Shown here in pieces: positions 9,031-30,617 of a stretch of 64,000 bases of DNA. The stretch is from NCBI RefSeq assembly GCF_002571225.1, contig NZ_NVEC01000008.1:1-64000 (forward strand), in the 5' to 3' direction. The notes below the pieces were generated by a model, which did not search any database, had not been told where the DNA came from, and was given only the letters and a program-made list of their open reading frames with translations. Both the position numbers and the translations under genes were made by a program. Numbering within the stretch: the stretch's first letter is position 1; each line of letters begins with the position of its first letter. The stretch is from Bacillus sp. AFS059628 (GTDB lineage Bacteria; Bacillota; Bacilli; Bacillales; Bacillaceae_G).

Positions 9031-10125
9031 ATGGATTATGGTTTTAGCTATAACTTCCCCGCTTTACGTGGAAAGCAAGGTGGTAAGGAGTACTTTGTTG
9101 TAATGTGCCCTTTACGCTTAATCCCTAAAATATTTCTATTTGACGAGGAAGAAATCCCTGCTGAACATCGTGCACAAAGGATATTAAATAAAATTAGAAT
9201 CCCAGAAATCACAAATTATATCATTGAAAATCAAAATGATTATGTTTTTTCATCCCTAACAGCATCTATAGATGGTGATATTGAATTCCAACCATTTAGT
9301 TCTGATCAGTCGTTTCAAGATTTAGGACAACTTCGTATCTCACTGGATTCTAAGTTCCTGATTAATGATGGACAACATCGAAGAGCAGCTATCGAAGAGG
9401 CGATAAAGCTTTCGCCAGAATTAGGACATGAAACGATTTCGGTTGTGTTCTATCATGATCAAGGTTTAAGAAATTCCCAACAAATTTTCTCAGATCTTAA
9501 CCGCCATGCAGTTAATACAACTTCATCTATCGGTATTTTATATGATCATAGGGATAAGTTAGCATTAGTTACAAAAGAAATTGTCGAGGAAAATGAATTA
9601 CTATCTCGATATACCGACAAAGAAAAAGTCAATTTATCTAAAAACTCACCGAAGATTCTCGCTTTAAATCACATATTTAATACAAACCTTCGATTACTAG
9701 GAAAGACAAAGGGTGACTTAATTACAGAAAAAGAAGAACAATTCTTAAAAGAATTTTGGAACATTCTTTGTGATACAATAGTCGAATGGAATTTAGTTTA
9801 CAAAAAAGAACTAAACCCTCGTGAACTTCGAATGCATTATATTGTCGGGCATGGAGTATTCATTGAATCTGTTGGTTTAGTAGGAAAATATGTTTTTGAA
9901 AATCATCCAAAAGATTGGAAAAAATACATTTCTCTTTTAGCAGATATCGACTACAGTCGTTCTAATTCTTCCGATTGGTTAGGACGAGCTTTCAATACAA
10001 ATGGTCGCATACAAAAGACAAAAGAAACAGTCACTTTAACCGCAAACAAACTAAAAGAAAAATTAGGTCTTCCTTTGACAGAAGGAGAACAAAAGATAGA
10101 AGAGAAATTCCAGTTAGGAGCATGA
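9031..10125 (+). CDS. dndB: DndB, DNA phosphorothioation regulator
   Basis: DndB is the DGQHR-domain protein of DNA phosphorothioation loci; in characterised systems it represses the modification genes and influences the extent of modification. The 364-residue product carries the signature LINDGQHRRAAIEEA (DGQHR at about 113-117) and the later FSDLNRHAVNTT motif. The ATG at 9031 follows a GGAG, and a consensus sigma-A promoter lies at 8960-8988. The stop codon overlaps the AUG region of dndC (ATGATAATG), indicating translational coupling. Confidence 0.93.
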   Translation: MDYGFSYNFPALRGKQGGKEYFVVMCPLRLIPKIFLFDEEEIPAEHRAQRILNKIRIPEITNYIIENQNDYVFSSLTASIDGDIEFQPFSSDQSFQDLGQLRISLDSKFLINDGQHRRAAIEEAIKLSPELGHETISVVFYHDQGLRNSQQIFSDLNRHAVNTTSSIGILYDHRDKLALVTKEIVEENELLSRYTDKEKVNLSKNSPKILALNHIFNTNLRLLGKTKGDLITEKEEQFLKEFWNILCDTIVEWNLVYKKELNPRELRMHYIVGHGVFIESVGLVGKYVFENHPKDWKKYISLLADIDYSRSNSSDWLGRAFNTNGRIQKTKETVTLTANKLKEKLGLPLTEGEQKIEEKFQLGA

Positions 10126-10127
10126 TA

Positions 10128-11696
10128 ATGTTAAATAATCTCATTACTGATTTAATAAATAATAAAAATGACTTTGTCTCTGAAGCAAAAGAGCATATAA
10201 AAAAAGTTTATCGTGCTGACGACCGCCCTTGGGTCGTTGGTTATAGTGGTGGAAAAGATTCCACAGTTGTCGTTCAGCTTGTTTTTGAAGCTTTAAGTGA
10301 ATTACCTACAGAGCAATTACACAAGAAAGTATATGTAATCTCATCAGATACACTTGTAGAAACACCGCTAATTATTCAATCTATCAATGTTACTTTACAT
10401 CGAATTCAAGAAGAAGCTTTAAAACGTGATCTTCCTATTGAAACGCATAAAGTAAAACCAAAATACGAACAATCTTTTTGGGCTAATATTATCGGAAAAG
10501 GCTATCCATCACCAAACCAACAATTTCGCTGGTGTACAGATCGCTTAAAAATTGAACCAGCAAATGCGTTTGTAATGGACAAAGTTTCTACGTTCGGTGA
10601 AGTAATCATGGTCCTTGGTGTTCGGGAGAATGAAAGTGCTACTCGTGATAACGTTCTTAAATCCCATACCGTTGAAGGTAAAGATTTAATGCGCCATTCC
10701 ACGTTAACAAATGCATATGTTTTTGCACCGATTAGACAGTTTAGTTTAAATAACGTTTGGGACTACTTACTGGAAAATCCATCTCCTTGGGGCAACGATA
10801 ACCATGAATTAAATAAGCTTTATCAAGATTCAAGTAGTGGTGAATGCCCTCTTGTTGTAGATAAAACCATTAAAGAAAGTGCTGGTTCATGTGGAAACAG
10901 TCGCTTCGGTTGTTGGGTATGTACAGTAGTAAATGAAGATAAAGCATTAAACGGCTTCATTCTTAGTGGATCAGATTGGATGAAACCTTTATTAGAATTC
11001 AGAAATTGGTTAGCTGGGATTCGGGATGTTAGAACATTTCGTATGAAATACCGTAAAGGTGGTCAAATTTACTTTAACCCGCTAAAAACTGAAGTAAAAG
11101 ATGATATTGAATATGTAATCATTCCAAAAAAATCTAGTCGTCCAAAACAAATGATTAAATTAGAAGAATTTACAATTTTAGAAAGGGATGAACTAAAGTC
11201 TTATTTAGCAATAAACAATATTGATTTAAGTTCTCCTGAGGATCCAAAAATTTTAGTAAAGCTTGATAATAATCAAATCGGACAACTTGGTTTAGGTCCC
11301 TTTACACTGAACGCGCGAAAAGAGATTTTACGCAGACTTCTTATTGTCCAAAGAGATTTACAACATCCTGAAGAAGAGGATTTTGAATTAATTAAAGAAG
11401 AAGAATTACGTGTTATTCGTCGTTACTGGTTAGAAAATGGCGATTGGGAAGATTCTTTACCTAGCATTTTTAAAGAGGTAATGGGATATGACCTAAACTG
11501 GGAGTATGATGATCGTCCATTATTTGATAATGAACAAATTACAGATTTAGAATCATTATGTAGCAAACACAACGTAGACTTTAAAGCATTAAAAAAACTT
11601 ATATCACTTGAAAAAGATTTTTCAGGTTATAAAGTTCGTCGTGGATTAATGAACGAAATTGAAAAAGTACTAAAGCAAGACTACTTACATTTGTAG
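10128..11696 (+). CDS. dndC: DndC, ATP pyrophosphatase for DNA sulfur modification
   Basis: DndC (522 residues) belongs to the PAPS-reductase/PP-loop family and activates the DNA backbone for sulfur insertion while carrying an iron-sulfur cluster. The PP-loop VGYSGGKDSTVVVQL is at about residues 38-52. Candidate cluster ligands are the cysteines in FRWCTDRLK, SGECPL and SAGSCGNSRFGCWVCTVV. An open frame extends further upstream within dndB, but ATG 10128 has AGGAG 7 nt away and starts the homologous region. It overlaps the end of dndB by proximity and precedes dndD by 15 nt. Confidence 0.95.
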   Translation: MLNNLITDLINNKNDFVSEAKEHIKKVYRADDRPWVVGYSGGKDSTVVVQLVFEALSELPTEQLHKKVYVISSDTLVETPLIIQSINVTLHRIQEEALKRDLPIETHKVKPKYEQSFWANIIGKGYPSPNQQFRWCTDRLKIEPANAFVMDKVSTFGEVIMVLGVRENESATRDNVLKSHTVEGKDLMRHSTLTNAYVFAPIRQFSLNNVWDYLLENPSPWGNDNHELNKLYQDSSSGECPLVVDKTIKESAGSCGNSRFGCWVCTVVNEDKALNGFILSGSDWMKPLLEFRNWLAGIRDVRTFRMKYRKGGQIYFNPLKTEVKDDIEYVIIPKKSSRPKQMIKLEEFTILERDELKSYLAINNIDLSSPEDPKILVKLDNNQIGQLGLGPFTLNARKEILRRLLIVQRDLQHPEEEDFELIKEEELRVIRRYWLENGDWEDSLPSIFKEVMGYDLNWEYDDRPLFDNEQITDLESLCSKHNVDFKALKKLISLEKDFSGYKVRRGLMNEIEKVLKQDYLHL

Positions 11697-11711: not shown

Positions 11712-13703
11712 ATGTTAATTGAACAACTAGAATTAGAAAACATAGGAGCTTATACGGAAAGAAATACCTTCGATCTGTCTATCTCCTCCCCAAAAAAGAA
11801 AGTAATTTTAATAGGCGGAGAAAATGGTGCTGGGAAAACAACATTTTTAAATTCCATAAAACTAGGATTATTTGGTTGTTTCGGCTATGGATATAAGACA
11901 GAGAATAATGATTACTATAAGCGCGTCCATGGGTATTTAAATGCTTCTGCTCGTAAAGATGAGACAAATCCTTTTAGTATTACAATTACCTTTAGTGAAG
12001 TAGAAAATTACAAACGCCATGTTTACACATTCAAAAGATCTTGGAACATTTTAAACAGCGCTATAAAAGAAAAATTCACTGTAAAAAAAGATGGTCATTA
12101 TTTAAATGATGCTGAAAAAGATATTTTCGAATCAAGACTACGAGAGAATTTCCCGCCTAAATTATTTGATCTATGCTTATTTGATGGCGAAGAAATTTCA
12201 AAAATAATAAATGAAAATAAATTATCCTCTTATTTAAAAGAATTATCTACTGTTATATTCAACTTAGATTTATTCCGGAATTTAGAAGGTGATTTGACCA
12301 ACTATTTACAACAAGAAATTGATCAAGAACATCTTTCTTCTATAGAAAGTGAAATCCTTACCCTTCAGCGTCAAGAGAAAGAACAGTCTTTAAAGATTGA
12401 AGATCTTGAAGACACAATTAAAACAGCGCAGCAGCAAATAGAAGAATCAAAAGAATCTTATTCTTTATTGAAAAAGGATTTTGAAACACATGGTGGTTTA
12501 ATTAAAGAAGAACGTGAAACGTTAAATAGACAAGTATTAGAAATTGAAGCACATCGAAAAGCTAATTCTGAAAAAGTTCGAGAATTTATTCAAACGCTTT
12601 TACCTTTCTATCTAAACAAAAACTTATTACTATCTACTAAAAATCAATTACAAAATGAAGAAAAACTATCATTAGCAAACCAATTAACTTCAGAGTTAAC
12701 TGAAGAGCGCGCTCTTGAATTAGCTAAAAGTTTACCTGGAGTCTCAACTCCTAATGATTTAGCAGCTGAATTGAGAAAACAAATTTTCAATATTATTAAG
12801 CCTAATGATACAGATGTTGAGTATATCCATAGAGTTTCACCAACACAACGCACACAATTCGAAGTAGCGGCACAACAAGTTGAAAGAGAATCTCATGACA
12901 CATATATGCAATTACTTCAAGAAAATAGAGAAAACTTACTTCAAGCACAAGAACTAAGAAAGAAAATTTCTACTAATGATTCTACAAATGAGTTTGCACA
13001 AATGTTAGAAACTATGACTCAAACACAAGAAAAAATCTTTAAGTTAGAAAAAGAAGTAGAAGAAAACTTAAGTATTTTAGAAACTAGACAAGAGACTTTA
13101 GAAGCATTAAAAAATACAATCAACTCAAAACAGAATATTGTACAACAAAGTAACAAAACGAGAAATACATTCTTAATTGCCCAAAGCATTATGAAATTAA
13201 GTACAGAGTTTCAAATGTTACAACATCAAAAGAAATTACAACAAGTACAAATCGAAGCTACAAAAATGTTGAATAAATTAATGCGTAAACACCAATATAT
13301 TTCTTCTTTACGCATTGATTCTAGCACGTTTGAAGTAACTTTATATGATAATAATCGTGACCATGTAGCAAAAGAAACATTATCAGCAGGTGAGAAAGAA
13401 ATTCTCTTACTATCATTAATTTGGGCAATGTTCAAATGTTCTGGTCGTCGTGTTCCATTCATATTCGATACACTTTTAGGCCGCCTTGATCAAACACATA
13501 AACATAATATTTTAGTAGATTTCATCCCTGCATGTGGTGAGCAAGTCTTAATCTTGTCAACTAACTCTGAAGTTGATGAAAAACACTATAATTTACTGAA
13601 AAACTTTGTATCCCATGGATACTTATTAGAATTTGATACAGAACTACGAAAAGTGAATGTTACAGATCAATATTTCAACTTTAATAAGGAGCAAGCAAAA
13701 TGA
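11712..13703 (+). CDS. dndD: DndD, SMC/Rad50-like ATPase of phosphorothioation
   Basis: DndD (663 residues) is the ABC/SMC-type ATPase of the modification complex, thought to supply energy or nick/open DNA for sulfur insertion. Walker A is GGENGAGKTT (35-44); the FDLCLFDGEEISKII block follows; a long coiled coil spans about 200-510; the ABC signature is LSAGEKEILLLSLIWAM and Walker B is FIFDTLLGRLD. The last 4 nt overlap the dndE start (ATGA). A second DndD-like protein is encoded at 15602. Walker B here has Leu where the second copy has Pro (DTPLGRLD). Confidence 0.93.
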   Translation: MLIEQLELENIGAYTERNTFDLSISSPKKKVILIGGENGAGKTTFLNSIKLGLFGCFGYGYKTENNDYYKRVHGYLNASARKDETNPFSITITFSEVENYKRHVYTFKRSWNILNSAIKEKFTVKKDGHYLNDAEKDIFESRLRENFPPKLFDLCLFDGEEISKIINENKLSSYLKELSTVIFNLDLFRNLEGDLTNYLQQEIDQEHLSSIESEILTLQRQEKEQSLKIEDLEDTIKTAQQQIEESKESYSLLKKDFETHGGLIKEERETLNRQVLEIEAHRKANSEKVREFIQTLLPFYLNKNLLLSTKNQLQNEEKLSLANQLTSELTEERALELAKSLPGVSTPNDLAAELRKQIFNIIKPNDTDVEYIHRVSPTQRTQFEVAAQQVERESHDTYMQLLQENRENLLQAQELRKKISTNDSTNEFAQMLETMTQTQEKIFKLEKEVEENLSILETRQETLEALKNTINSKQNIVQQSNKTRNTFLIAQSIMKLSTEFQMLQHQKKLQQVQIEATKMLNKLMRKHQYISSLRIDSSTFEVTLYDNNRDHVAKETLSAGEKEILLLSLIWAMFKCSGRRVPFIFDTLLGRLDQTHKHNILVDFIPACGEQVLILSTNSEVDEKHYNLLKNFVSHGYLLEFDTELRKVNVTDQYFNFNKEQAK

Positions 13704-14080
13704 ACTACCGTTTAAAGATTTCTAAAAGAGTATCAGATAAACTAAAAGAATTACAAGCTCCTACTAATTTAACACCAAATATTTTAGCTCGTTTAGCAGT
13801 TGGATTATCTTTAACTGATCCAACTTTTCCTGAGGTTTTAACAGATAAAGAAGCCGGTGGATTAGAAATCAATCGCCACACATTAACTGGAGAATATGAT
13901 TTTATTTATAAATGCTTAATCACTCAGCATGCGGGACGTGAAGTATCTGATAATGAATACTTTCCTACCCTATTCAACGCTCACTTAGAACGCGGAATTA
14001 ACTTATTAGACAGCGAATATAAACATGCTGGAAACAACGAGAAATTCACAATGAACTTGCTAAAATACGGTAAGGAGTGA
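13700..14080 (+). CDS. dndE: DndE, DNA-binding subunit of phosphorothioation
   Basis: DndE (126 residues) is a small basic protein reported to bind nicked DNA in the modification complex. The sequence fits the family throughout: YRLKISKRVSDKLKEL, then LTPNILARLAVGLSL, then EINRHTLTGEYDFIYKCLI and a C-terminal AHLERGINLL helix. The gene overlaps dndD by 4 nt upstream, and its stop overlaps a GTG codon of dndA. Clearly in one operon. Confidence 0.92.
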   Translation: MNYRLKISKRVSDKLKELQAPTNLTPNILARLAVGLSLTDPTFPEVLTDKEAGGLEINRHTLTGEYDFIYKCLITQHAGREVSDNEYFPTLFNAHLERGINLLDSEYKHAGNNEKFTMNLLKYGKE

Positions 14081-14085
14081 TCTCT

Positions 14086-15207
14086 ATGCTTTATCTTGAT
14101 AATAGTGCAACAACACAATTATTACCTGAAGTTAAAGAAGTAATGTTGCCATATTTACTTGAAGAATTCGGAAATCCTTCAAGTAAATATTACGGATTAG
14201 CCCAAAATGCTAAAGACGCTGTTGAAACAGCAAGAAAACATGTAGCTCAATTATTAGGCTGTGAAACTGATGAAGTAATCTTTACTAGTGGTGCTACAGA
14301 AAGTAACAACTTTATTTTGAAAGGCATCGCTCATTATCATAAAGATAAAGGCAATCACATTATTACTTCTAAAGTAGAACATCCTTCTATCATAGAAACT
14401 TGTAAATTTTTAGAAGCGAATGGCTATACGGTCACATATCTTGATGTAGATCAATATGGCAGAATCAATTTGGAAGAACTAACTAAAGCTATCCAACAAG
14501 AAAAAACTCTTCTCGTTTCAATTATGTGGGGCAACAACGAACTTGGTTCTCTAAACCAAATCAACGAGATCGCAAGAATCTGCAAAGAGAATGAAGTGTT
14601 CTTCCATACAGATGCTACACAAGTAGTTGGAAAAATACAATTCTCTCTTTCAGATATAGACGGTATAAACTTTTTATCCTGCTCTTCTCATAAGTTTCAT
14701 GGTCCAAAAGGTATTGGGGTAACCATAATAGGTAAAGATAATTTAGGATTACCAATCCAAATCACTCCTCTACTTCACGGTGGCGGACAAGAACGTGATA
14801 TACGCAGTGGCACACTACCCGTCCATAATATTGTTGGAATGGGAAAAGCTGCAGAAATCGCATATCTTAATTTGGAACAAAACATTTATAAATTAGAGCA
14901 ACTAGAGAACAAATTAGCTGATATTCTAAAAACCAAATTTCAAAATCATATTGAGTTTAACAATGATATTCAAGATAAAATACCTGGAATATTAAGTGTT
15001 ATATTTAAAGGTGTAAACAACGAAACGCTTGTGAGGACTCTTGCTCCAGTAGCTGCCGTTTCTACTGGATCGGCTTGTAGCTCAAGTAAACCAAGTCATG
15101 TATTACAAGCTATCGGATTATCTATGGATGATTTACGTTCTACTATTAGGTTCTCCCTTTCTTCTACTACTAGTTTAGAAGAGTTGGATGTTTTTAATAA
15201 TCTATAA
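14086..15207 (+). CDS. dndA: DndA-type cysteine desulfurase
   Basis: PLP-dependent NifS/IscS-family desulfurase (373 residues) that moves sulfur from cysteine toward DndC. Seen: the N-terminal LDNSATTQ, the PLP-lysine motif SSHKFHGPKGIG (Lys about 203) and the active cysteine in STGSACSSSKPSH (Cys about 331). I start at ATG 14086, 8 nt after GGAG, rather than the in-frame GTG at 14077. Many dnd loci lack dndA or place it first; here it is the last gene of the operon. A strong terminator follows directly. Confidence 0.9.
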   Translation: MLYLDNSATTQLLPEVKEVMLPYLLEEFGNPSSKYYGLAQNAKDAVETARKHVAQLLGCETDEVIFTSGATESNNFILKGIAHYHKDKGNHIITSKVEHPSIIETCKFLEANGYTVTYLDVDQYGRINLEELTKAIQQEKTLLVSIMWGNNELGSLNQINEIARICKENEVFFHTDATQVVGKIQFSLSDIDGINFLSCSSHKFHGPKGIGVTIIGKDNLGLPIQITPLLHGGGQERDIRSGTLPVHNIVGMGKAAEIAYLNLEQNIYKLEQLENKLADILKTKFQNHIEFNNDIQDKIPGILSVIFKGVNNETLVRTLAPVAAVSTGSACSSSKPSHVLQAIGLSMDDLRSTIRFSLSSTTSLEELDVFNNL

Positions 15208-15243
15208 AGAAAACAGAAAGGGATATGCCTTTCTGTTTTCTTT
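15206..15243 (+). terminator. terminator ending dndB-A operon
   Basis: A perfect 16-bp stem (AAAGAAAACAGAAAGG and its complement) with a 6-nt loop and a T-rich right arm directly follows the dndA stop codon. It separates this operon from the second dndD/dndE-like set. Confidence 0.85.
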
Positions 15244-15403
15244 ATTTCCTTACTAACTACTAATCTAGTAATTTTATATCTACGTTAATAGCTCCTCCCT
15301 ACTTAAAATCACAACTTTCTCTATTTTTAAACACCCATTAAAATATGGTAATATTATATATAAGATATTCCTATACTTCATGCTCATATTAAAGGTGGTA
15401 AAA

Positions 15404-15583
15404 ATGAATAAATTAAAAGAACAAGAGCTAGAATTACTAGCAAAAATTTGTAAAGAAAATGAACTATCAACAAAACTAGCATATGACTTATTACGTTCTG
15501 CTGAAAAATTTTCATATGAAAACACGAGTGAAAATCATAGAAAAAAAGATTACCTAGATTTAATTGATTTTTATGCCAAATAA
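15404..15583 (+). CDS. small protein heading the second DndD/DndE-like operon
   Basis: The 59-residue product is helical (MNKLKEQELELLAKICKENE, then LAYDLLRSAEKFSYEN, then KKDYLDLIDFYAK). It resembles the short proteins annotated as associated with DNA modification systems, though I cannot confirm that by search. I start at ATG 15404, preceded by AAAGGTGG; an upstream in-frame start lacks such a site. It lies 18 nt before the second DndD-like gene, so co-translation and a shared role are likely. Confidence 0.65.
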   Translation: MNKLKEQELELLAKICKENELSTKLAYDLLRSAEKFSYENTSENHRKKDYLDLIDFYAK

Positions 15584-15601
15584 AGTAAAGGTGACTACAT
15601 A

Positions 15602-17617
15602 ATGTTATTTAAAAAACTTATTTTTGATAATTACAAAACGTATTATGGGCATCAAGAAGTTGACTTCTATATCCCAAAAGAGGTACGTGAAGAAGGCGAA
15701 AAAAATATTATCTTGTTAGGCGGCCTAAATGGAGCTGGAAAGACTACAATTTTAAAAGCAATTTTATATGTTTTATTCGGAAAAAGAGGATTCTCACCTG
15801 CTGAGCATAAACGTGTATTTTCTAATGTTATTAACAATACCTTCTTTGACGAAGGTGGGAGAGATTGTTCTGTAACTCTTGCTATTGAAACGGATAAAAA
15901 TGAAGAATGGACTCTTAAAGTTAAATGGGGCTTTGATCACAACAAAAGGTTAATTAGTGAAAACCGTGATTTAACTGTGAAAAAGCCTGGTGCAATGATT
16001 GGTAAAACTGTACGTATTGATAATATAGATACATTTAATCGCTTTATGGATAAAATGATTCCATATCACGCTGCACCATTTTTCATTTTTGATGGCGAAG
16101 AAATTAAAGACATCATTTTACGACAAAATAGTGAGGAAATGAAAGAAGCTATTCACAAAATTACTGGGATGGAAACCTATAAATTATTACTATCTGACCT
16201 CTCTTCTATTAAGACTGGCATAGAGAAGAATTTAGCCAAAGCGGTTGACCAAAATAAACTAAAAAGTTTAGATGCCAATTTAAAAGAATACGAAGAGCAA
16301 ATCCAACATCTAGAAAAACGAAAAGAACTTATATCTTCTGAACGAAAGAAATTCGACGATCTAATCAATGAAGTGAAAAATGAACGTAATGAAAAAATTA
16401 CAACTAACTCCAAATCAAGAGAGGTTATTGTAAAAAAACAATCTGGTCTAGCAACTGAGTTACGTCTAGCTAAAGAGCAATTTGAAAACTATTTCAACAA
16501 TAACGCTATAAACATCATTCTAAAAGAAAAAACTAAAGTACTACAGAACAGATTAAAATTAGAGTATGATATTCGTCAAAAGAAAATGATACAAGACGCT
16601 TCTTTAATGCCTTATGAAAAATTTATGGATGAATTATTAAACCAACCATTCACTCCTCCCCTTTCAAATGAGCAATTAAATCAACTCAAGGAAATCGGAA
16701 GAGAAATTTGGGTTAAAGAAAATGATATCGAAAAAGATATATCCGAAGATCACGTAGATATTCACGATATTTCAAATAAAGACTATAACTACCTTGTAAA
16801 TCTCCCTGCTAGAAATAATAGTTATGTTATAGATTTAATAAATAAAATTGAGAAGCTGAATCTTGAATTAGAGGCATTAGAAATTGAAATTAGAAATGCA
16901 CCTGAAACGATTGATATTAGCGCAGAAAATGAACGTATTGATATCCTAACTAAAAAATTAGGAGAACTTAACTTAAAATATAAATCAATTATTGCAAAGT
17001 TAAATAAAATTAAAGAACAAAGAACAGCCGTTGTAAACCAGCTAACCCGTCTTTCTGATCAATGTGCAGATTATGATGCTCTAAATAAACGATTAATTTA
17101 TGTCAAAAAGTTGATTCATACTATGAATTCATATGTACATGAAATGACAAAGTTAAAAGCAAGCTTTATTCGCGAAGAATTTTCTTCAATGTTAAGTCGA
17201 TTATTCCGTAAACAAGATGAATTTGGAAAAATTGAATTCGATATTTCAACGTATACTGTTAGATTATACAACGATCGTAATCAAGAAATTAGTATTCAAG
17301 ACCGATCTGCTGGTGAAATGCAAATGATTTCCTCGTCACTAATTTGGGCCCTAACAAAAGCCTCTGATTTAGCCCTTCCTATGGTAATCGATACACCACT
17401 AGGACGCTTAGACAGTTATCATCGAAATCATTTAATTAACTATTACTATAAAGAGCTTAGTGAACAAGTAATTATCTTATCCACAGATACAGAAATTACC
17501 CAAGACTATATTAATTTCATGCAAGAGCATTCATATAAGCAATACATGCTTGATTATGACCAATCAAAGAAATATACAGTTATCCGCGATGGATATTTTG
17601 ATTTTATAAAGGTGTGA
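15602..17617 (+). CDS. second DndD-like SMC-type ATPase
   Basis: This 671-residue protein has the same architecture as DndD: Walker A GGLNGAGKTT (40-49), the block APFFIFDGEEIKDIILR, a long coiled coil (about 210-500), the signature DRSAGEMQMISSSLIWAL, Walker B MVIDTPLGRLDSYH, and the ending SEQVIILSTDTEI. The family match is at least as good as that of the dndD at 11712, yet the two are clearly diverged. It is followed 4 nt later by a DndE-like gene, so a dndD-dndE-like pair is present twice. Role is unknown; it may form an alternative or accessory complex, perhaps with DptFGH. Confidence 0.85.
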   Translation: MLFKKLIFDNYKTYYGHQEVDFYIPKEVREEGEKNIILLGGLNGAGKTTILKAILYVLFGKRGFSPAEHKRVFSNVINNTFFDEGGRDCSVTLAIETDKNEEWTLKVKWGFDHNKRLISENRDLTVKKPGAMIGKTVRIDNIDTFNRFMDKMIPYHAAPFFIFDGEEIKDIILRQNSEEMKEAIHKITGMETYKLLLSDLSSIKTGIEKNLAKAVDQNKLKSLDANLKEYEEQIQHLEKRKELISSERKKFDDLINEVKNERNEKITTNSKSREVIVKKQSGLATELRLAKEQFENYFNNNAINIILKEKTKVLQNRLKLEYDIRQKKMIQDASLMPYEKFMDELLNQPFTPPLSNEQLNQLKEIGREIWVKENDIEKDISEDHVDIHDISNKDYNYLVNLPARNNSYVIDLINKIEKLNLELEALEIEIRNAPETIDISAENERIDILTKKLGELNLKYKSIIAKLNKIKEQRTAVVNQLTRLSDQCADYDALNKRLIYVKKLIHTMNSYVHEMTKLKASFIREEFSSMLSRLFRKQDEFGKIEFDISTYTVRLYNDRNQEISIQDRSAGEMQMISSSLIWALTKASDLALPMVIDTPLGRLDSYHRNHLINYYYKELSEQVIILSTDTEITQDYINFMQEHSYKQYMLDYDQSKKYTVIRDGYFDFIKV

Positions 17618-17621
17618 TATT

Positions 17622-17993
17622 ATGGCAAATAGAAGAATGAACCTCTCAGGAACAGGTAAAGAAACCCTTGACCTACTCTGTGAAGTACTTGAGATTGATC
17701 GACCACAGGGGATAAAAATTGCGTTAGCAAAAGGTATTGCTAACGATACAGGAAAAATAAATGATGACTTTAAAGATGGAAAAAACAAATGGACAATCCC
17801 AGATAATATTATTAAAGATAAAGAGTTTTTACTCTTTAAACATTTAATTATTAACGAAATGCAAGTTGCTTTAAATGAAGATGAAATCACACAAAGCATA
17901 CTTTTGTATATAGAATATGGGCTAAAGATCATCAAACAAGAAGTAGACAATTTATCTTCATTAGAAGATTATCGTATTATTGTATTAAACTAA
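17622..17993 (+). CDS. second, diverged DndE-like protein
   Basis: The 123-residue product aligns by eye with the DndE at 13700: RMNLSGTGKETLDLL opposite RLKISKRVSDKLKEL, RPQGIKIALAKGIAND opposite TPNILARLAVGLSL, and FLLFKHLIINE opposite FIYKCLITQ, with a final helix IEYGLKIIKQEV opposite LERGINLLDSEY. The TLTGEYD-like block is replaced by KWTIPDNIIKD. The gene starts 4 nt after the second dndD-like gene with AAGGTG as ribosome site. Assignment is by alignment and gene position, less certain than for the canonical copy. Confidence 0.7.
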   Translation: MANRRMNLSGTGKETLDLLCEVLEIDRPQGIKIALAKGIANDTGKINDDFKDGKNKWTIPDNIIKDKEFLLFKHLIINEMQVALNEDEITQSILLYIEYGLKIIKQEVDNLSSLEDYRIIVLN

Positions 17994-17997
17994 AAGC

Positions 17998-18025
17998 AAA
18001 AGGAACCACCAAAGTGGTTCCTTTT
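17998..18025. terminator. bidirectional terminator between second dndE-like gene and dptH
   Basis: A 12-bp perfect stem (AAAAGGAACCAC and its complement) with a 4-nt loop has A- and T-runs on both sides, so it can end transcripts from both converging operons. It reaches the last base of the dptH stop codon. Confidence 0.85.
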
Positions 18026-21000
18026 TATATTCTCTCAGATAAAGATATAATATCAACCACCGTTACAGTTGGTTGAGACAATTCACCATTTACTTGTAAC
18101 ACAGGTCCATGTACAATGCATTGACCTTTTTTCAATGTTGAAAGTCTATTCTCCCATTCTTTTTTCTCTGAAGAATCGTTAGATAGACTAGTAGCAATTG
18201 TAGAAATCTCTTGTTCTGGCGGCGCAAAATAAACCTTCTGTGAAGCATTTTGTAGCCTTGCTAATTCATCAGTAGCCAATTGAGATTTTAAAAATTGAGT
18301 TGCATACCATGCAGACCATCCAAATTTACGTCCTTCTTGTAAAATTCGTGCAGAAGGTGATTTTTCCGTATGATCAAGATTTTGTGCTTCATCCATTATG
18401 ACAGGCATTGGATTATTTTTATTTCCAAACCTTACGGAATAATTCCAAAGATCCCATAAAACAAATTCTGTAATTATTAATTGAACGTCTCGAGGATACC
18501 CAGTCAACTGAATAATAAAAATCTCACCATTACTATCTACAACATCTTTCCAATTTATTGTATTTTCATGGCTAAATGGATTACGATCAATAAGCGGTCT
18601 TATTTGAGATAAAGCCGTCTTAGCATAGCTAGAACCATCTTCTTCTAAACATTCTCTAAGCTTTATTAGGCTCATATCTTCTCCATACTTATCCAATCCA
18701 TTAAGAGTACCTTCATAAATCGCATTTAATTGTTGCACACCTAATGTGCTATATACAGCAGCAAATACACTCTTAATTCTTTCAGCAACATCCGTATTAG
18801 ATTCCGGAAGCGTAATGCCTCCAATATCCCTTTCATTCTTTTGAAACGGATTAATTGGAAGCTGCTCACTATATACAATCTTTTGTTTTAACTTTGTACC
18901 CATTGCTTGTACAAATTCATCTTCTAATTGGTTTGGTAAAAATCCTTCTGTATAGTCAATAACAATACTTGGGATACCTTGCTTCGATTTTTCTAACAAT
19001 AAGCATTGCATGAAATATGTCTTACCTTGTCCGGATTTACCTGAGATCAACAAATGTCTATTCGCCAATCCTTTATTACCATACTCCCAATAAATCTTTC
19101 TATTCGAGTTCTCTGCCTTCCCAATTAGAATTCGAGATTCTTCTAATCCTTGTGGCTCTCTTTCTTTTGTCCCTTCAAGAACTTCTATTGTATTATCGAT
19201 TTTCTCTTTAGTAACCTCATTAGAATCGATAATTTCAGGCTTTGCTTCCACCTCTATATCAGCCTCTAATTCATTTTTTTCTGAGCGAAATGATGATGCA
19301 CTTTCTATTTCGCTACAGGCACCTGTATATTTATGAGAAAGTAATTCTTCCTTAATAAAATCGCCTTCTGTTTCTTGAATCCACTTCTTCATATCTTCCA
19401 TTGGTTGTATAAGACCACTATATCCATCAAACTCTGGAAGGCTTAATAAGGTAATCCCTTCATCCAGTTTGGCACTTCTATGATAAGCGTCTCGCTGGAA
19501 GGATAAAATTGCTCCTTCACCAATAGATGATTCTATTCCGTTGGAAATTATAAATTGATCTTTCAACAGTTTTTCAACCACTTTATTATTCAATTCATAA
19601 TTTTTCTCTTCCCAGAATCTACTTTTCAATATTTTATTAGCATTAGAAATATAAAGTTGAGCAAAGAAATTACGATAGAAACGGCTAGCAAAAGAATTAG
19701 TTGTTAATGCATCATTGATTAATTTCTTCGTATGTTTAACTTGTTTTCTCGCCTTTTCTAATACATCGTTTTTATTAGCTCCGATTTTTACTTCGACAGG
19801 ATAAAAATGCATCATTACATCATTCTCTACTTGTTCCAAACCTATTAACAGTAAATCATCACTATGAACACCTTTTACTCCTAAGTTTTTAGCTGTAAAT
19901 ATGCCATCTGCTTTCTTTAAATTAACAGCACCTGCAACTCTTAAAACTTCTTCTAGAGAAATTGGCACCCATAAAATGTCGCGATGTTCAAAATATGCTA
20001 AAGAGAATTTTATAGCAGAAATAATACTTAACTTCTCTCTAGAATAATGGCCCTTACTACCAATAACACGAAGTAACCATTCACCATTAAAAGTATTAAA
20101 TGCTTTAATAGTACTTTCTACATTTTCTTTTTTACTCTCTACTTGTTTTTCCTTTAAAAATTCTTCAATAACAAAATGATATTGTTGCGATTTGTCCGTT
20201 ACAGTAATAGCATCATATCTACTTGAAGAGGAATATTGATCACTATAATGAATAACGACTAGATTTTGCTCGTAATCATTAAAGAACTCCAGATCAAAAC
20301 TTGGGTCTACAAATGTTACCCAATAAGAAGATTTGAAAATTTCTTCTAGAGTTTCTTCATCAGCACTCGTTGTTCTAGAAAAAATCGCTTCACCTTTTCG
20401 ATACGTATTATTTCCACCATTATGAAGGTTTGCGCATAATTCATTAAAATAATACGTTGTTTGTGTTAAAAGATTCTCTTCCTCTACAGCATATGCTTTA
20501 ACACCGAAACCACTCTTATAGTTTTCATTACTCTTCATTGAAGGTACTGTAGTGTATAACCCATCAATTGCTAAACCTGATAACATTTCATCCATAGATT
20601 GTAATGCATATCGCTCTTGCGCTTGCATTTTATAGAAAGAAATATGAGCATACTTATATTCTTCGCCCATTTCTTTTTTATAATAAAATAGCTTTTCACG
20701 AATAAATCGCAATATATCCTGGGGTTCATGCTGCTGTTTTGCGCCTAAATTAATATTAAATTTTGTTTGAAACTCCTCTACCGATTCTATTCTTGAGAAA
20801 TTATCAAATGCACTGTCCTGGCCTTCTTCTTTATAAAGTGTAACTTCAACAGCTTTTAAACCTTCAGGCCCTTTTGATCTAATTCTTTCAAGCATCCAAT
20901 TTACGATACCTCTAAAGGTTTCATGATCGTTTTCAATATTGATTAAATTAATTTGCAACGGTGCCTTAGAGTACTCACTAAATAAATAACCAAAGTGTCC

Positions 21001-23208
21001 TTCAAACTGCTGAATTTTATCCTCAATTACTTTTGCTAAATATTGATTAGCATCCGATACTGAAACTTGATTAACTGGTTTAAAGTCCATCCACTCTAAT
21101 GCCATATTCTGATTATCTGGTCTATACAATTGATCTCGCTCATTATAAATATATGGAACTAGTCCATCTGGTTTTAATCGCTGTAAAATACTATTATCTA
21201 CTTCTTCATTTAAAAGTAAATTATTCAATTTTAATTGGAAAGCGACCATAACTGGATGGAATGGTGTAAATTTAATTACATTATTCCCCATAACTGTTCC
21301 TAACTTAAACAAATCTCGTCCACGTTTGCCGGCCTCATGCCCTTCTTCAAAACTTTTAATCTCTTGTATAAAAGCATTCAAATATTCTTCTGCTCTTTTA
21401 ACTAACTCTTCACTGTAATAACATAAGCTTGGTATACCTTTTTTAATTTTAAAGTAAGTTAAAAATCTACTATAAGCTTCTCTTAATTCATCGCTAATGG
21501 ACACCTCTTCAGGGACCAATGCATCGGACTCTACTACGGCACATCTAAGTCCATTTTCAATCCATTGGTACTCCCACTCGAATAAGTTTTTATATTCCGG
21601 GCTTAAATAGAATTCTCTATTTCCAAAACGCAATCGATTATTTATCCATTCAAAATCTCTTTGCTGCTCACGCTTTAATTTCCAAATTCGCGCGCCATTA
21701 ATGGGGGTAGATTCCGGTAACTCATTTTTCAATATAAATGGAATGATTGTTCCACTCTCCGTCAAGCGAATGTTAACTCGCATCTCTTCTTCATCATTAT
21801 ATGCTTCTGGTTGAGGGAGAATAGTAAGTTCATCATCTACGCTACAATCAATAGTTGCATTTTCCTCATAGACTTCCATTGATTTTTTGTTATAGCCTTG
21901 TCCAAATGAAAGCTCATTATCTTCATGCTGAAGTTCAATCAGGCACTTATTAGGAGCTATCAAATATGTTGTTTTAAAAGCATCTAATACATATGGGTCA
22001 ATTGGTAGTACCACAATAAATAGTTCTACACCTAAAGTTGATTTATCATCATGCTTATAAGACAACCTAACAAATGTAGGTTGATTACTCTCTGTTTTTA
22101 TAACCGCACTAAGGTTTATTTTCCCTACCGATACTTCTACATTTTTCTTAAACTTCGGAGGTACTTTTACGTATTTATTCGATAAACTTTTAACATTTCC
22201 ACCTTGAATTGAAAATGCCACATTTAAATATACTTCTTCCTTACCTTCTGGATTAAATATAACTAAGTGTCTTTTTCTTTCTCCTGCTGCGGTTTCCTTT
22301 TGAGGTTTATCCCAAAAGTGCAACCCTTCTTTAACTGTCAACTCTTTTAAATTGATTGATGCCTTTTTATGAAGATCTAAATAATCTTGATGGAATCGAT
22401 TAACATCAGCAAAGTTAATTTCTTGCCAATCTTCACGTTTTAATTTACTAGCTCCCTCAGGGGTGAACTTTTTTTCTAATTCTTCTGCGCCTAAACCAAA
22501 GTCATGAATTTTCCTAACAAATTCATATAATTCTCTATTCGCACTTAAACGTTCTTTTTGTTTATTCCCTTTAAAAGTAGCTAATTCTTCGTCTTTAAAA
22601 ACTGCAAATTTTTGATAGTCTTTATCTTCTATCGTACCCTTTGCAAGAGTAGAAAAAATTTCTTCAAACTCAAAAAAAGTAACTTGTTGATGTGCCTGTT
22701 CTTGCTTAATCATCTCCATGTTTTCTATAAGGATAATTTGTGCAGTTTTATCCAACATACTGCTTTCAATTTCTTGTCTTAATCCCTTTACTATAGAATT
22801 AGGATGCAACGGCATTCCATCCTTTTGAAGGTCACTACTTCCACCTTGAATTGAATCCAACTGCTCTGAAACTATACTCAATAAAGCTGTATCTTTCCAT
22901 ACACCTTTTTGTTCACCGACTTGATTTCGTAAAGTAACTAAGAAATCTGGTTTAACATTTTCATTTGTATAGGCAATAACAAGTTGAACATTTTGTATTT
23001 CAACTGAAAATGTTTTATACGGTTCACCTAATTCATGTTTATATACAAATTGTTTAACATTTTTCTGCTCTTGGAATGCTTCTACTAAATTCTCTACATC
23101 CTCTACTTTATCTAGCTGTAAATAAAATCTATCACCGGCTTTTATTGAACGATTTTTAAAATCCCCCAATAACAACTCACATATATAATTATAAAATTCG
23201 TTTGACAT
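18025..23208 (-). CDS. dptH: DptH, phosphorothioation-dependent restriction ATPase
   Basis: Very large (1727 residues) restriction subunit of the Dnd/Dpt system. The C-terminal third is a HerA/FtsK-type translocase: Walker A LLISGKSGQGKTYFMQ at about residue 1390, IVIDYTEGFLPNQL, and Walker B MPVIMDEAQNLD at about 1600. The N-terminal part is unlike known enzymes by eye, apart from scattered basic and acidic patches. With DptF and DptG it cleaves DNA lacking phosphorothioates. I begin at ATG 23208, where GGTGAT is spaced 7 nt; the frame is open further. It overlaps dptG by 20 nt. Confidence 0.9.
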   Translation of the reverse strand: MSNEFYNYICELLLGDFKNRSIKAGDRFYLQLDKVEDVENLVEAFQEQKNVKQFVYKHELGEPYKTFSVEIQNVQLVIAYTNENVKPDFLVTLRNQVGEQKGVWKDTALLSIVSEQLDSIQGGSSDLQKDGMPLHPNSIVKGLRQEIESSMLDKTAQIILIENMEMIKQEQAHQQVTFFEFEEIFSTLAKGTIEDKDYQKFAVFKDEELATFKGNKQKERLSANRELYEFVRKIHDFGLGAEELEKKFTPEGASKLKREDWQEINFADVNRFHQDYLDLHKKASINLKELTVKEGLHFWDKPQKETAAGERKRHLVIFNPEGKEEVYLNVAFSIQGGNVKSLSNKYVKVPPKFKKNVEVSVGKINLSAVIKTESNQPTFVRLSYKHDDKSTLGVELFIVVLPIDPYVLDAFKTTYLIAPNKCLIELQHEDNELSFGQGYNKKSMEVYEENATIDCSVDDELTILPQPEAYNDEEEMRVNIRLTESGTIIPFILKNELPESTPINGARIWKLKREQQRDFEWINNRLRFGNREFYLSPEYKNLFEWEYQWIENGLRCAVVESDALVPEEVSISDELREAYSRFLTYFKIKKGIPSLCYYSEELVKRAEEYLNAFIQEIKSFEEGHEAGKRGRDLFKLGTVMGNNVIKFTPFHPVMVAFQLKLNNLLLNEEVDNSILQRLKPDGLVPYIYNERDQLYRPDNQNMALEWMDFKPVNQVSVSDANQYLAKVIEDKIQQFEGHFGYLFSEYSKAPLQINLINIENDHETFRGIVNWMLERIRSKGPEGLKAVEVTLYKEEGQDSAFDNFSRIESVEEFQTKFNINLGAKQQHEPQDILRFIREKLFYYKKEMGEEYKYAHISFYKMQAQERYALQSMDEMLSGLAIDGLYTTVPSMKSNENYKSGFGVKAYAVEEENLLTQTTYYFNELCANLHNGGNNTYRKGEAIFSRTTSADEETLEEIFKSSYWVTFVDPSFDLEFFNDYEQNLVVIHYSDQYSSSSRYDAITVTDKSQQYHFVIEEFLKEKQVESKKENVESTIKAFNTFNGEWLLRVIGSKGHYSREKLSIISAIKFSLAYFEHRDILWVPISLEEVLRVAGAVNLKKADGIFTAKNLGVKGVHSDDLLLIGLEQVENDVMMHFYPVEVKIGANKNDVLEKARKQVKHTKKLINDALTTNSFASRFYRNFFAQLYISNANKILKSRFWEEKNYELNNKVVEKLLKDQFIISNGIESSIGEGAILSFQRDAYHRSAKLDEGITLLSLPEFDGYSGLIQPMEDMKKWIQETEGDFIKEELLSHKYTGACSEIESASSFRSEKNELEADIEVEAKPEIIDSNEVTKEKIDNTIEVLEGTKEREPQGLEESRILIGKAENSNRKIYWEYGNKGLANRHLLISGKSGQGKTYFMQCLLLEKSKQGIPSIVIDYTEGFLPNQLEDEFVQAMGTKLKQKIVYSEQLPINPFQKNERDIGGITLPESNTDVAERIKSVFAAVYSTLGVQQLNAIYEGTLNGLDKYGEDMSLIKLRECLEEDGSSYAKTALSQIRPLIDRNPFSHENTINWKDVVDSNGEIFIIQLTGYPRDVQLIITEFVLWDLWNYSVRFGNKNNPMPVIMDEAQNLDHTEKSPSARILQEGRKFGWSAWYATQFLKSQLATDELARLQNASQKVYFAPPEQEISTIATSLSNDSSEKKEWENRLSTLKKGQCIVHGPVLQVNGELSQPTVTVVDIISLSERI

Positions 23209-24589
23209 ACTGTGCATCACCACTATCACTTTTTTTATCTAGAATATTATGAGAATCAAATAGCTCGATAATCATCTTTTTCGAATGACGATCAAAAGCT
23301 ACTCCCCTTTTTGAAAATTCCTCAAACAAACGATTTAACGGCATTCTCTCTTCTTTTACACATACAGCTGTTAAGAGTAACAGCATTTCATGACTCATAT
23401 TAAAAACAGCCCCTATGCTGCCTCGATTTTTCAGAAAAACATCTGCCCCTAAATCTTCAATGTTCTCTCCAAACTTTTTACATGCATCTGTATTCATTCC
23501 CTCTTTTAGACAACTAAACAATGTTTTAAAAACCTCAGATATATCTTCTGGTGCATCTTTAGGTGTTACTCGCTTTGCCCAAAGCTCACTATATTTATTA
23601 ATCCATTGTTTACTATCTGTTAAAAATTGCTCTGAAACATCCAATCCTTTTTCATTTATTAAATCTTTTAAGTATCTATAATTCATAAATTGAAAACTTT
23701 GCTTTTCATCCGCTTCTTCATCTTGAAGCTCGTTATAACTTAATTGAGACATCGTGTGTATATGCACAAATAAATTTGGTGCTTTATCTTTTATTCTTCT
23801 AAATCCTTCTAGGTCATCCGCAGCTTTTCTTCTCTTACTAATAGATTCCCATTCTAAAGCGAAATATAAAGGATTAGAATGCGTATAATCCGCTTCATCA
23901 AATTGTTCAAACTTCACAACTAATTGACAAACATACATAAAGCTATAAAAATGCGTAAGTAATGGGAAAGATTTCAAGAAGTAATCTTTATATTGACTCA
24001 AAAATAGCAAGTCTTCCTGGTAGAAATTCGCTAAAAATCCCATTAAAGGTTGATATTGTTTGACCGGATCTTTAGCTGGAATATCTAATTTATTTAATAT
24101 GAGTTCTGTTAATATATCTTCACTTTCCTTATTCTTAAATATAGAACTAATACTTACTTCATCATGAACTAGCGCATCTTTTATAAATTGCCCATATTTC
24201 GGTAAATCTTTCTTCTCTTTAGGTGTAGCCATATAGTTAAATAAATATGGATGGATAGGTTTAATTTTATTATCTTGACCAAATAAATATTGATTTAAAA
24301 ATCGGTCTAAATCATATTCCGCTTCCTGCGTATACTCAATTTCTTCCATAATTTGATCTACAAAAGGGTTTCTAGAGGAAAACAATTCCTCTTCTTCACT
24401 ACTCTTCTTATCAACTAGGCGTAAACCACAAACATTTCGGACGTACTCACCTAAAACTTCATTAAAATTTCCACGTATTGATTTCGTTCTTTTTGTAACA
24501 AATGGTAAAATATCTACAACTTTACCAACATCATGTTTGTTATTCCCCAATAACTGTTCTAATTTATCTATTTTTAATAGTGTATCCAT
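23189..24589 (-). CDS. dptG: DptG, phosphorothioation-dependent restriction protein
   Basis: DptG (466 residues) is the middle subunit of the Dpt restriction module; it has no well-understood catalytic motif. The sequence is Lys/Glu-rich and helical, with a block VDILPFVTKRTKSIRGNFNE near the N-terminus and a C-terminal winged-helix-like ending (MPLNRLFEEFSKRGVAFDRH, KMIIELFDSHNILDKK). GGGAG lies before the ATG. The gene lies 6 nt after dptF and overlaps dptH by 20 nt. Assignment rests mainly on size and on position between F and H. Confidence 0.85.
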   Translation of the reverse strand: MDTLLKIDKLEQLLGNNKHDVGKVVDILPFVTKRTKSIRGNFNEVLGEYVRNVCGLRLVDKKSSEEEELFSSRNPFVDQIMEEIEYTQEAEYDLDRFLNQYLFGQDNKIKPIHPYLFNYMATPKEKKDLPKYGQFIKDALVHDEVSISSIFKNKESEDILTELILNKLDIPAKDPVKQYQPLMGFLANFYQEDLLFLSQYKDYFLKSFPLLTHFYSFMYVCQLVVKFEQFDEADYTHSNPLYFALEWESISKRRKAADDLEGFRRIKDKAPNLFVHIHTMSQLSYNELQDEEADEKQSFQFMNYRYLKDLINEKGLDVSEQFLTDSKQWINKYSELWAKRVTPKDAPEDISEVFKTLFSCLKEGMNTDACKKFGENIEDLGADVFLKNRGSIGAVFNMSHEMLLLLTAVCVKEERMPLNRLFEEFSKRGVAFDRHSKKMIIELFDSHNILDKKSDSGDAQYVKRIL

Positions 24590-27109: not shown

Positions 27110-28057
27110 TTAAAATGAACCATACATCTCCAACAACTTCCTACCCTCCTCAACAACCTCTTCCCTCAATCCCTTAGGCTCCAACACCCTAACCGAAGCA
27201 CCCATCCCCAAAATCCACTTCTTAATCGATTCTTTCCCGCTCATCGTCGCCCGGAAAAGAATGCTGCCGTCCTCATTATGTGCTATCTTTTGATTCTCTC
27301 CCCAAATGGATTCTGGTACGGATACGGCGAACGGTGGATAGATGAGTAACTCTACTTCTAATGGCTCTTTCATGATGCCGAACTTCGGAAACTCTTCTCG
27401 GATATCGAATTTGTCGGGTATTTTATATGTATCATACAAAGTTTTAATATCTTTCATTCGAGATAGTTTAAACATACGTTTTTCTTTTTTATCATTACAC
27501 AGTGCTAAGCAGTAAAAGAATTCGTTGTAGTGCACAAAACCGTACGGGTCGATAATTCGTTCTGATCTTTCACCAGATAGTTTCTCATACTGGATTTTTA
27601 CTTTGCTTCTTATAAATAGCGCTTCTTGTAATTGTACATATTTTTGATTTTCATTCGAAAATACATAATTCGGCTTCGATTTTTGCACAAAATATATGTG
27701 GCGGTCTTTATTCGTTTCTACTTTCCGAACAGCATTCAATTTATCTAATGCTACTTGTGCGTCCCGTGAATACATGTCATTACCTTTTGAAACTAGTTTT
27801 TTTATAGAGAATGTTAACGCATCTAGCTCTTGTTGAGACATATTTTTAATAGGAAATAACGATGTATTCGAAAGAGAATAACCACCGTACCTGCCTTTTG
27901 TTGTCTCTATTTTTATACCTGCCATTTCAATATCATCACGATAAATACGGACCATCCGCTCTTTCACTTCTAACAACTCTGCCAACTCACTAATCCTCAT
28001 TTTCCCTCTCGCATGTAGGAGTTCAATCATGTATAGGCAGTTACTTAATTTACTCAT
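27110..28057 (-). CDS. WYL-domain transcription regulator
   Basis: The 315-residue protein has an N-terminal HTH (LLHARGKMRISELAELLEVK, RIYRDDIEMAGIKIE, with KGRYGGYSL wing) and a C-terminal WYL domain (KIQYEKLSGERSERIIDPYG, then YNEFFYCLALCNDKKEKRMF and RMKDIKTL). WYL proteins bind nucleic acids or nucleotides and often control defence loci such as CRISPR and BREX. Its position 249 nt upstream of dptF on the same strand fits either a regulator of the island or an older chromosomal gene. The last ~45 codons use mostly G/T-ending codons, unlike the rest. Confidence 0.9.
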   Translation of the reverse strand: MSKLSNCLYMIELLHARGKMRISELAELLEVKERMVRIYRDDIEMAGIKIETTKGRYGGYSLSNTSLFPIKNMSQQELDALTFSIKKLVSKGNDMYSRDAQVALDKLNAVRKVETNKDRHIYFVQKSKPNYVFSNENQKYVQLQEALFIRSKVKIQYEKLSGERSERIIDPYGFVHYNEFFYCLALCNDKKEKRMFKLSRMKDIKTLYDTYKIPDKFDIREEFPKFGIMKEPLEVELLIYPPFAVSVPESIWGENQKIAHNEDGSILFRATMSGKESIKKWILGMGASVRVLEPKGLREEVVEEGRKLLEMYGSF

Positions 28058-28145
28058 ATAATTCCTCGTTTCTATTCATCCATCCTCATTCAAGTATAAA
28101 AGAATAGAATCATCTTTCAAGTTGTTTCTATATGCTTCCAAATCA

Positions 28146-28562: not shown

Positions 28563-28594
28563 TAACGACTAATCTCCTTTATTACATTAAAACA

Positions 28595-28626
28595 AATGCC
28601 AAGTACATTCCTCTGCACTTGGCATT
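28595..28626 (-). terminator. terminator of the PD-(D/E)XK gene
   Basis: A 10-bp stem (AATGCCAAGT with ACTTGGCATT, about a 12-nt loop) lies 4 nt after the stop of the nuclease-like gene. The T-run for the minus strand is only partial. Confidence 0.6.
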
Positions 28627-28630
28627 GCTT

Positions 28631-30481: not shown

Positions 30482-30617
30482 TCCCCACACCGCCGTTTAT
30501 AAATTTGTGAATCAACTCTCCTGAATAATCATTTTAATAAATTGTTATAAGTAAATTATAACTTATAATGTGGCATTATTTATGTCACATATCCTATTTC
30601 TTACAAATAAACATGCA
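30482..30617. other. spacer between nuclease and TctC-type genes
   Basis: Short spacer with no gene. It contains the leader of the nuclease-like gene (GTGGGG-type ribosome site) and a TA-rich stretch around 30540-30570 that could hold its promoter. Confidence 0.35.

Follow-up and report, generated by a model that had tools for sequence, protein, structure and literature searches.

The 64,000-nucleotide stretch analyzed here (the window; positions 1 to 64,000 of contig NZ_NVEC01000008.1 of Bacillus sp. AFS059628) carries a DNA phosphorothioate (PT) island, in which a unit of three genes (the trio, 15404-17993) is located between the dndBCDEA modification operon and the convergent dptHGF restriction genes. 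The trio encodes a small protein (SP), a second DndD-like ATPase (DndD2), and a second DndE-like protein (DndE2). A preliminary description of this DNA had reported such a second pair with a small companion protein, and all three genes are indeed present there.

Architecture of the trio

The SP gene (15404..15583, + strand) encodes a DndC-tail-like small protein of 59 residues (PF20306, E = 3e-8), or of 67 residues if translation starts at an earlier ATG of the same frame. It is followed after 18 nt by the gene for DndD2 (15602..17617, +), a 671-residue ABC/Rad50-like ATPase identified by TIGR03185 (291.9 bits), PADLOC model PDLC02735 (1156.5 bits), and its place in a tree, and then after 4 nt by the gene for DndE2 (17622..17993, +), a 123-residue double ribbon-helix-helix protein according to its predicted fold. 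The sequence AAAGGTG, which probably serves as ribosome-binding site, is located before each of the three genes. DndD2 has a full set of ATPase motifs, with Walker A (15719..15748, +), Q-loop, signature (17303..17317, +), and Walker B/D-loop (17381..17413, +) all in place, which agrees with the earlier view that it is not decayed. The parts of the trio have been annotated gene by gene, as the record of Priestia megaterium plasmid pBMG4 names the homologues "DNA modification system-associated small protein," "DndD," and "hypothetical protein."

The trio is bracketed by terminators, as had also been described. A hairpin between dndA and the trio (15205..15244, +; -23.2 kcal/mol, z -7.3) is absent from the list of the pattern scan, and a bidirectional terminator between DndE2 and dptH (17998..18025, no strand assigned; -16.7 kcal/mol, z -6.3) appears in that scan as well. 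The promoter scan yielded 12 sites vs 15.0 in shuffled sequences and thus no excess.

Linkage to dptH across genomes

A scan of genome contigs with DndD2 identified 18 loci, in 15 of which the trio is located at dptH; two of the other three are cut by contig ends, and one (L018) has no adjoining dptH. Sampling with the DptH model TIGR03237 found 21 positives among 398 genomes of the class and 30 among 397 genomes of the order (that of Bacillus sp. EB01). With identical duplicates counted once (L005/L047, L009/L073, L010/L067, and L011/L069), the number of distinct loci with the trio at the 3' end of dptH is 27, including the window; the trio is convergent with dptH in 25 and co-directional in two (G551 and G618, where the order is dptFGH-SP-D2-E2 and the trio is downstream of dptH). 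DndD2 is within 0.5 kb of dptH in 25 of the 27 loci and at 1.9-2.0 kb in L048 and L066. The dnd operon is upstream of the trio in 8 loci, beyond dptF in 16 (where often only the dndB end falls inside the stretch), and in neither place in three. Because the modification operon occurs on either side, it is no fixed partner of the trio, and conservation in 26 further loci argues against a chance arrangement. Recurrence of the trio beside dptFGH is thus borne out, and the earlier caution that the trio might be a routine component with a known role holds in its first half: within one DptFGH clade the trio is indeed routine, and no known role was found for it.

The genome samples show the same association. 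In the order sample, for which three candidates per genome were scored, a strong DndD2 was found in 16 of 397 genomes, all of which have DptH. When the 14 DptH genomes lacking DndD2 were rescanned with all candidates scored, only two DndD-type matches (240-248 bits) were found. The phylum sample of 398 genomes (three candidates per genome, E 1e-80) contained one strong DndD2, in the center genome G001, and two weak ones (285-308 bits). The dpt loci on Massilia, Pseudoalteromonas, and Levilactobacillus plasmids have no trio in their 8-10 kb flanks, the viral contigs scanned with DndD2 contain no relative, and no near-match to window positions 9000-30000 was found in plasmid DNA.

These distributions bear on the proposal that the trio is a separate defense unit, with its own effect on phages, which merely shares the island. 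Its own terminators and likely ribosome-binding sites would suit such a cassette. However, family-model searches found no nuclease or other effector domain in the trio proteins, and the 16 of 16 strong DndD2 genomes that also have DptH, against 30 of 397 genomes overall, weaken this proposal to the point where we regard an independent cassette as highly unlikely.

The small protein and the C-terminal tail of DndC

SP passes the PF20306 (Sp-DndD) model with 34.1 bits (cut-off 27.2), and its relatives in L046 (22.1 bits), L105 (19.8), and L099 (15.0) are under the gathering threshold. The only dndC-type gene found in the window by hidden Markov models (HMMs) encodes the sulfurtransferase of the modification operon (9975..11696, +; TIGR03183, 676 bits); its listed TTG start overlaps dndB, and the true start is probably later. 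The C-terminal tail of this DndC (residues 516-573; 11520..11693, +) is related to SP by a PF20306 match (E = 9.6e-7, above gathering) and by profile-profile comparison. PF20306 matches the DndC tail in four of the six DndC scanned, exceeding gathering for the window DndC only. When an SP profile, from an alignment that drew on 26 loci, was compared with ten locus families, the DndC tail was matched at E = 4.8e-5 (probability 68) and the next family, DndA, at E = 0.021; a second match of the SP profile was to the N-terminal extension of fused DndD2, as SP is fused to the DndD2 N-terminus in three genomes of the class. Enlarged profiles of 32 SPs and 34 DndCs gave E = 9.9e-6 (probability 82.5), which none of 100 column shuffles reached, and the PADLOC DndC model matches the L102 SP (E = 9.6e-7). 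SP-DndC comparison by BLASTP was not significant.

In E. coli, DndC residues 433-482 and the last helix are predicted to bind DndD, and a DndC triple mutant (L458D/E462A/R471A) abolishes DndD binding in pull-downs (Fu et al., 2025; PMC12193691). The window DndC tail is the equivalent of this docking segment. A direct lookup of positions 458/462/471 in the DndC of E. coli H240 mismatched; its specificity loop is four residues earlier, and with this offset the L, E, and R were read by eye at 454, 458, and 467. SP aligns to the docking stretch, and the SPs of L102-L104 share, by eye, the L, the E, and the paired R pattern. In the window SP, the leucine is L29, the glutamate is shifted by one, and a longer loop precedes R46, a residue that does not vary within a set of 17 SPs but is not shared by all 26. 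The same protein has been called mostly disordered (Rakesh et al., 2024; PMC10853773), but the SP model gives three helices at pLDDT (predicted local distance difference test) 69, and SP is therefore not plainly disordered.

At 59 residues, SP matches only the C-terminal stretch of DndC and has no PP-loop sulfurtransferase. From these sequence comparisons, the trio looks like DndCDE minus the sulfurtransferase, with SP resembling the DndC docking tail.

Co-divergence with DptH and co-occurrence with DndC

In a DptH tree of 64 rows, including six with too little flank that were kept without a state and excluding L015 (whose DptH is split over contigs), the 26 trio-adjacent and 32 non-adjacent rows require one state change. 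Support for the trio group by the Shimodaira-Hasegawa-like approximate likelihood ratio test (SH-aLRT) is 89, below the 95 mark, and that for a wider clade also holding G415, G494, and G009 is 99. Over 16 loci, pairwise divergence is correlated between DndD2 and DptH (r = 0.95), DptF and DptH (0.94), and DndD2 and DndC (0.82). The partial correlation of DndD2 and DptH given DndC is 0.86, with 0 of 5000 permutations as high, and that of DndD2 and DndC given DptH is 0.12 (p = 0.26). The 16 loci leave out G551, a divergent DndD2 branch, after it showed up as an outlier; we infer, having seen this, that G551 carries a distant trio which replaced the original one at the same job.

The class and order samples together include 50 DptH-positive genomes. 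DndC is over the cut-off in 29 of them, and DndD2 occurs in 23 of these 29 and in none of the 21 without DndC over the cut-off (Fisher p = 5e-9). All 33 DndD2 genomes checked have DndC. This co-occurrence is suggestive only, since it comprises just two or three independent contrasts on the tree, and a test for co-occurrence beyond shared ancestry had no power.

The presence of DndC in all 23 of these DndD2 genomes, together with the single dndC-type gene in the window and the scoring of DndD2 as a DndD, would be in line with a second modification complex, in which DndD2-DndE2 would draw on the shared DndC, or trade places with DndD1-DndE1, so that other sites become modified, and SP would be an assembly or regulatory factor. 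However, SP should occupy the DndC docking site, it is fused to DndD2 in the three genomes mentioned above, and no co-divergence of DndD2 with DndC is left once DptH is controlled for. The alternative modification complex offered in the preliminary description is further weakened by the resemblance of SP to the DndD-docking tail of DndC alone, and we consider it unlikely.

DndE2 fold and DndD2 lineage

DndE2 is predicted to consist of two ribbon-helix-helix units, that is, to have the DndE fold: its AlphaFold model (pLDDT 82) has solved DndE structures as its best structural matches. By sequence, DndE2 does not match TIGR03184, is sub-threshold for PF08870 (18.6 bits, cut-off 25; E = 0.0024), and shows no significant BLASTP similarity to DndE1; a DndE2 profile searched against Protein Data Bank (PDB) sequences found DndE at E = 0.16 and 0.57, ranked under an unrelated protein (0.023). 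The earlier alignment of the 123-residue protein with DndE is thus supported at the level of predicted fold and not by sequence scores, which are below cut-offs.

DndD2 passes the DndD model TIGR03185 (cut-off 245.85 bits), yet it is outside the DndD clade of modification operons. In an ATPase tree of 57 rows, DndD1 (19), DndD2 (33), and PbeC (5) separate, with quick-tree SH-aLRT values of 98 for DndD2 and 78 for DndD1. On the basis of this tree, DndD2 is a third ATPase clade beside canonical DndD and PbeC. The CxC motif is present in all five PbeC rows and absent from all 33 DndD2 rows and all 52 non-PbeC rows. In PDB sequence searches, neither DndD2 nor DndC yielded a relative at E = 0.001.

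The best PADLOC score of the DndD2 lineage comes from PDLC02735, a model named PbeC. This score, and a weak match of the L102 SP to PbeB (E = 1.6e-4), would be expected if the trio were a PbeBCD remnant, i.e., an ordinary CxC-ATPase system that has been retained through linkage after losing PbeA. Nevertheless, the CxC hook is missing throughout DndD2, the two ATPases are in separate clades, the ATPase motifs of the window DndD2 are intact, and in six genomes PbeA and PbeC form a separate set near the trio (G551, G618, and G002 with full-length PbeA; G415, G494, and G009 with short PbeA). The identification of the trio as PbeBCD was dropped for the lack of CxC, the distinct clade, and these separate sets, and we give a remnant hardly any weight. 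As PDLC02735 matches a lineage without the CxC hook, PADLOC may report Pbe systems where there are none.

An HMM built from one PbeA had no match in the window. The 33 DndD2 genomes include five with full-length PbeA, eight with a short form, and 20 with none above 100 bits. In G551 and G618, the trio is followed by PbeA, PbeC, and, in the place of PbeD, a small gene without a family match, so that dptFGH-SP-D2-E2-PbeA-PbeC and the small gene (L099 and L100) run in one direction; together with the canonical pair, which in G551 adjoins them, this makes three ATPase sets. In G618, DndD2 and DndE2 are separated by an IS110-type transposase gene, and its DndD2 is reported to contain one internal TAG. 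The short PbeA (about 460-530 residues) has no N-terminal part of the model and was found in only two of 54 other genomes searched. It is carried by all six genomes (G243, G278, G305, G415, G494, and G009; L054, L058, L059, L083, L084, and L093) in which the DptH frame is 1329-1361 residues, compared to mostly about 1700-1815 elsewhere, and the two truncations may complement each other.

Neighboring genes in the window

The modification operon comprises, besides dndC, the genes dndB (9031..10125, +; TIGR03233, 587.7 bits), canonical dndD (DndD1; 11712..13703, +; TIGR03185, 800.6 bits), canonical dndE (DndE1; 13700..14080, +; TIGR03184, 104.7 bits), and dndA (14077..15207, +; TIGR03235, 562 bits). 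On the other side of the trio are the partner restriction gene dptH (18025..23229, - strand; TIGR03237, 1899.7 bits), dptG (23189..24589, -; TIGR03236, 442.9 bits), and dptF (24596..26860, -; PADLOC PDLC02673 (DndF), 834.7 bits). All five dnd genes as well as dptH and dptG exceed NCBIfam cut-offs, and DptF was matched by the PADLOC DndF model. Upstream of dptF (27110-30490) are genes for a WYL-domain regulator, a 138-residue protein without a Pfam match, and a 619-residue PDDEXK_4 nuclease-family protein, which are a possible regulator and backup effector.

Proposed role of the trio

The computations above establish the anatomy of the trio, the predicted fold of DndE2, the linkage and co-divergence with DptFGH, and the relation of SP to the DndC tail, whereas we only infer that SP-DndD2-DndE2 forms a complex, contacts DptFGH, and reads PT. 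That the trio serves one DptFGH clade as a dedicated accessory complex, which does not modify DNA and couples PT status to restriction, has in our view about an even chance of being correct. Since DndE sits on the coiled coil of DndD and the DndC tail on its head (Fu et al., 2025; PMC12193691), SP-DndD2-DndE2 should assemble like DndCDE. DndD2 would act as a Rad50-like ATPase clamping and looping DNA, with DndE2 as its DNA-binding subunit, and SP, a free-standing copy of the docking tail, would take up the place of DndC on the head of DndD2 and thereby keep a sulfurtransferase from being recruited. Such a complex may scan DNA, perceive PT at target sites (or DndCDE occupancy), and pass this state to DptFGH, whereby marked host DNA would be spared and unmarked DNA nicked. 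As the trio has no DndC specificity loop, DndE2 or partners must be the source of any preference for sites. The tie between the trio and DptFGH points to a part in informing or delivering the restriction complex. The preliminary description had offered three roles, among which a sensor of modification state for DptFGH agrees best with the data, since DptFGH is the neighbor that the trio keeps, whichever side the modification operon is on; the other two lost ground as described above.

Several observations weigh against this accessory role. Concerning SP, the DndC of E. coli, the L054 DndC, and the fused N-terminus of L097 have no PF20306 match, 112 of 500 shuffles were as good as the ungapped single-sequence comparison of SP and DndC (with the best segment outside the tail), and the SP model is of moderate confidence (predicted template modeling score 0.40). 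Adding G551 lowers the DndD2-DptH correlation to r = 0.45, and the partial correlations are then not significant (p = 0.066 and 0.153). The co-occurrence of DndD2 with DndC reflects few contrasts, as noted. With both DptH and DndC present, six of the 29 genomes match the DndD2 model only through a canonical DndD-type protein (223-319 bits, vs at least 822 for DndD2), and PT-coupled DptFGH can thus dispense with the trio. The accessible text on Salmonella DndFGH, which restricts phages, mentions no such trio (PMC11662687). DndD2 is located elsewhere in five of the 32 non-adjacent tree rows (G243, G278, G305, G415, and G494), and the trio of G415, G494, and G009 is across the dnd operon, where short PbeA and PbeC genes adjoin it. 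Finally, a related trio occurs in three genomes (G331, G683, and G708) without a DptH match.

In these last three genomes (L102, L103, and L104), a more distant trio accompanies dnd modification genes, and divergent from it are genes for a UvrD-type helicase of about 715 residues and a protein of about 950 residues (two of the three pairs scanned). The latter has a sub-threshold PDDEXK_1 match and is called AddB-like from context, and the pair is a possible further PT-linked restriction engine. A NERD-domain protein (L104:2061-3155) and a PtuA-like ATPase (11981-14839) are encoded in the same stretch of L104.

The trio could be read more broadly, as a portable PT-reading adapter that licenses unrelated helicase-nuclease engines, namely DptFGH in one clade and the UvrD/AddB-like pair in others. 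The adapter would be a retired modification complex whose enzyme was cut down to its docking tail, and PbeBCD-PbeA would be a parallel case. We put this forward tentatively, at less than even confidence; if true, it would explain why some DptFGH systems are coupled to PT and others stand alone.

As an alternative, the trio may be a loader or brake: a Rad50-like clamp which either brings DptFGH to DNA ends or to invading DNA, or holds its nickase back, with DptFGH itself reading PT. The pairing with a helicase-nuclease of another kind, the tracking of the DptH clade by the trio, the lack in SP of the specificity loop that Fu et al. (2025; PMC12193691) described for DndC, and the binding of nicked DNA without sequence preference by archaeal DndE (PMC9239217) speak for it. 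On the other hand, all 23 trio carriers in the samples have dndC and none of the 21 DptH genomes without dndC over the cut-off has DndD2, although few independent events are involved, and we think this alternative rather improbable. The accessory complex, if correct, would provide a conserved, sulfurtransferase-less DndCDE-like complex as a concrete candidate coupling part for one DptFGH clade, where the literature, in its accessible parts, regards as open how DptFGH spares many unmodified host sites.

Comparison with known systems

The ingredients of the trio are already known. Rakesh et al. (2024; PMC10853773) describe the small protein, second copies of the ATPase-DndE pair, and their mixing with DndFGH; 25 strains combine pbeAC, dndFGH, and PT genes (Xiong et al., 2019; PMC6459918), and Pfam PF20306 matches the DndC tail. 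Moreover, tandem systems of DndD and a CxC ATPase, each with its own DndE, have been published for 22% of Dnd taxa (PMC10853773), so that the earlier statement of one DndD and one DndE per Dnd locus is outdated. The trio with DptFGH was not found in the accessible literature, and Supplementary Data S1 of PMC10853773 may list such neighborhoods; within these sources, the link of the trio to a DptFGH clade, the separate ATPase clade, and the SP/DndC-tail identity appear new. The last would give the small protein of Rakesh et al. a proposed identity, a DndC docking tail, and the second shows that the PADLOC model named PbeC covers a different lineage.

The trio resembles DndCDE in the order (DndC tail)-DndD-DndE and in the combination of a DndD-type ATPase with a DndE-fold partner. 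In contrast, it has neither the PP-loop sulfurtransferase nor the DndC specificity loop, its ATPase and DndE form a distant clade, and it is linked more tightly to restriction genes than to the modification operon. With PbeBCD of PbeABCD, it shares a small protein, an ATPase, and a DndE-like protein in one cassette beside PT genes, but the trio lacks CxC, belongs to a distinct clade, is located at dptH, and has no PbeA match in the window. The dptFGH genes of the window are complete and the trio is their constant neighbor in this clade, whereas DptFGH (DndFGH), in the descriptions accessible to us, is a system of three genes, with DndI added in some, for which no DndD-DndE trio is listed. Lastly, the duplicated DndDE of Rakesh et al. 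(2024) likewise place a second ATPase-DndE pair near the dnd operon, but those duplicates, as published in the accessible text, are opposite-facing DndBDE/DndDE clusters or CxC pairs, whereas the trio is a small-protein cassette at dptH with an ATPase lacking CxC.

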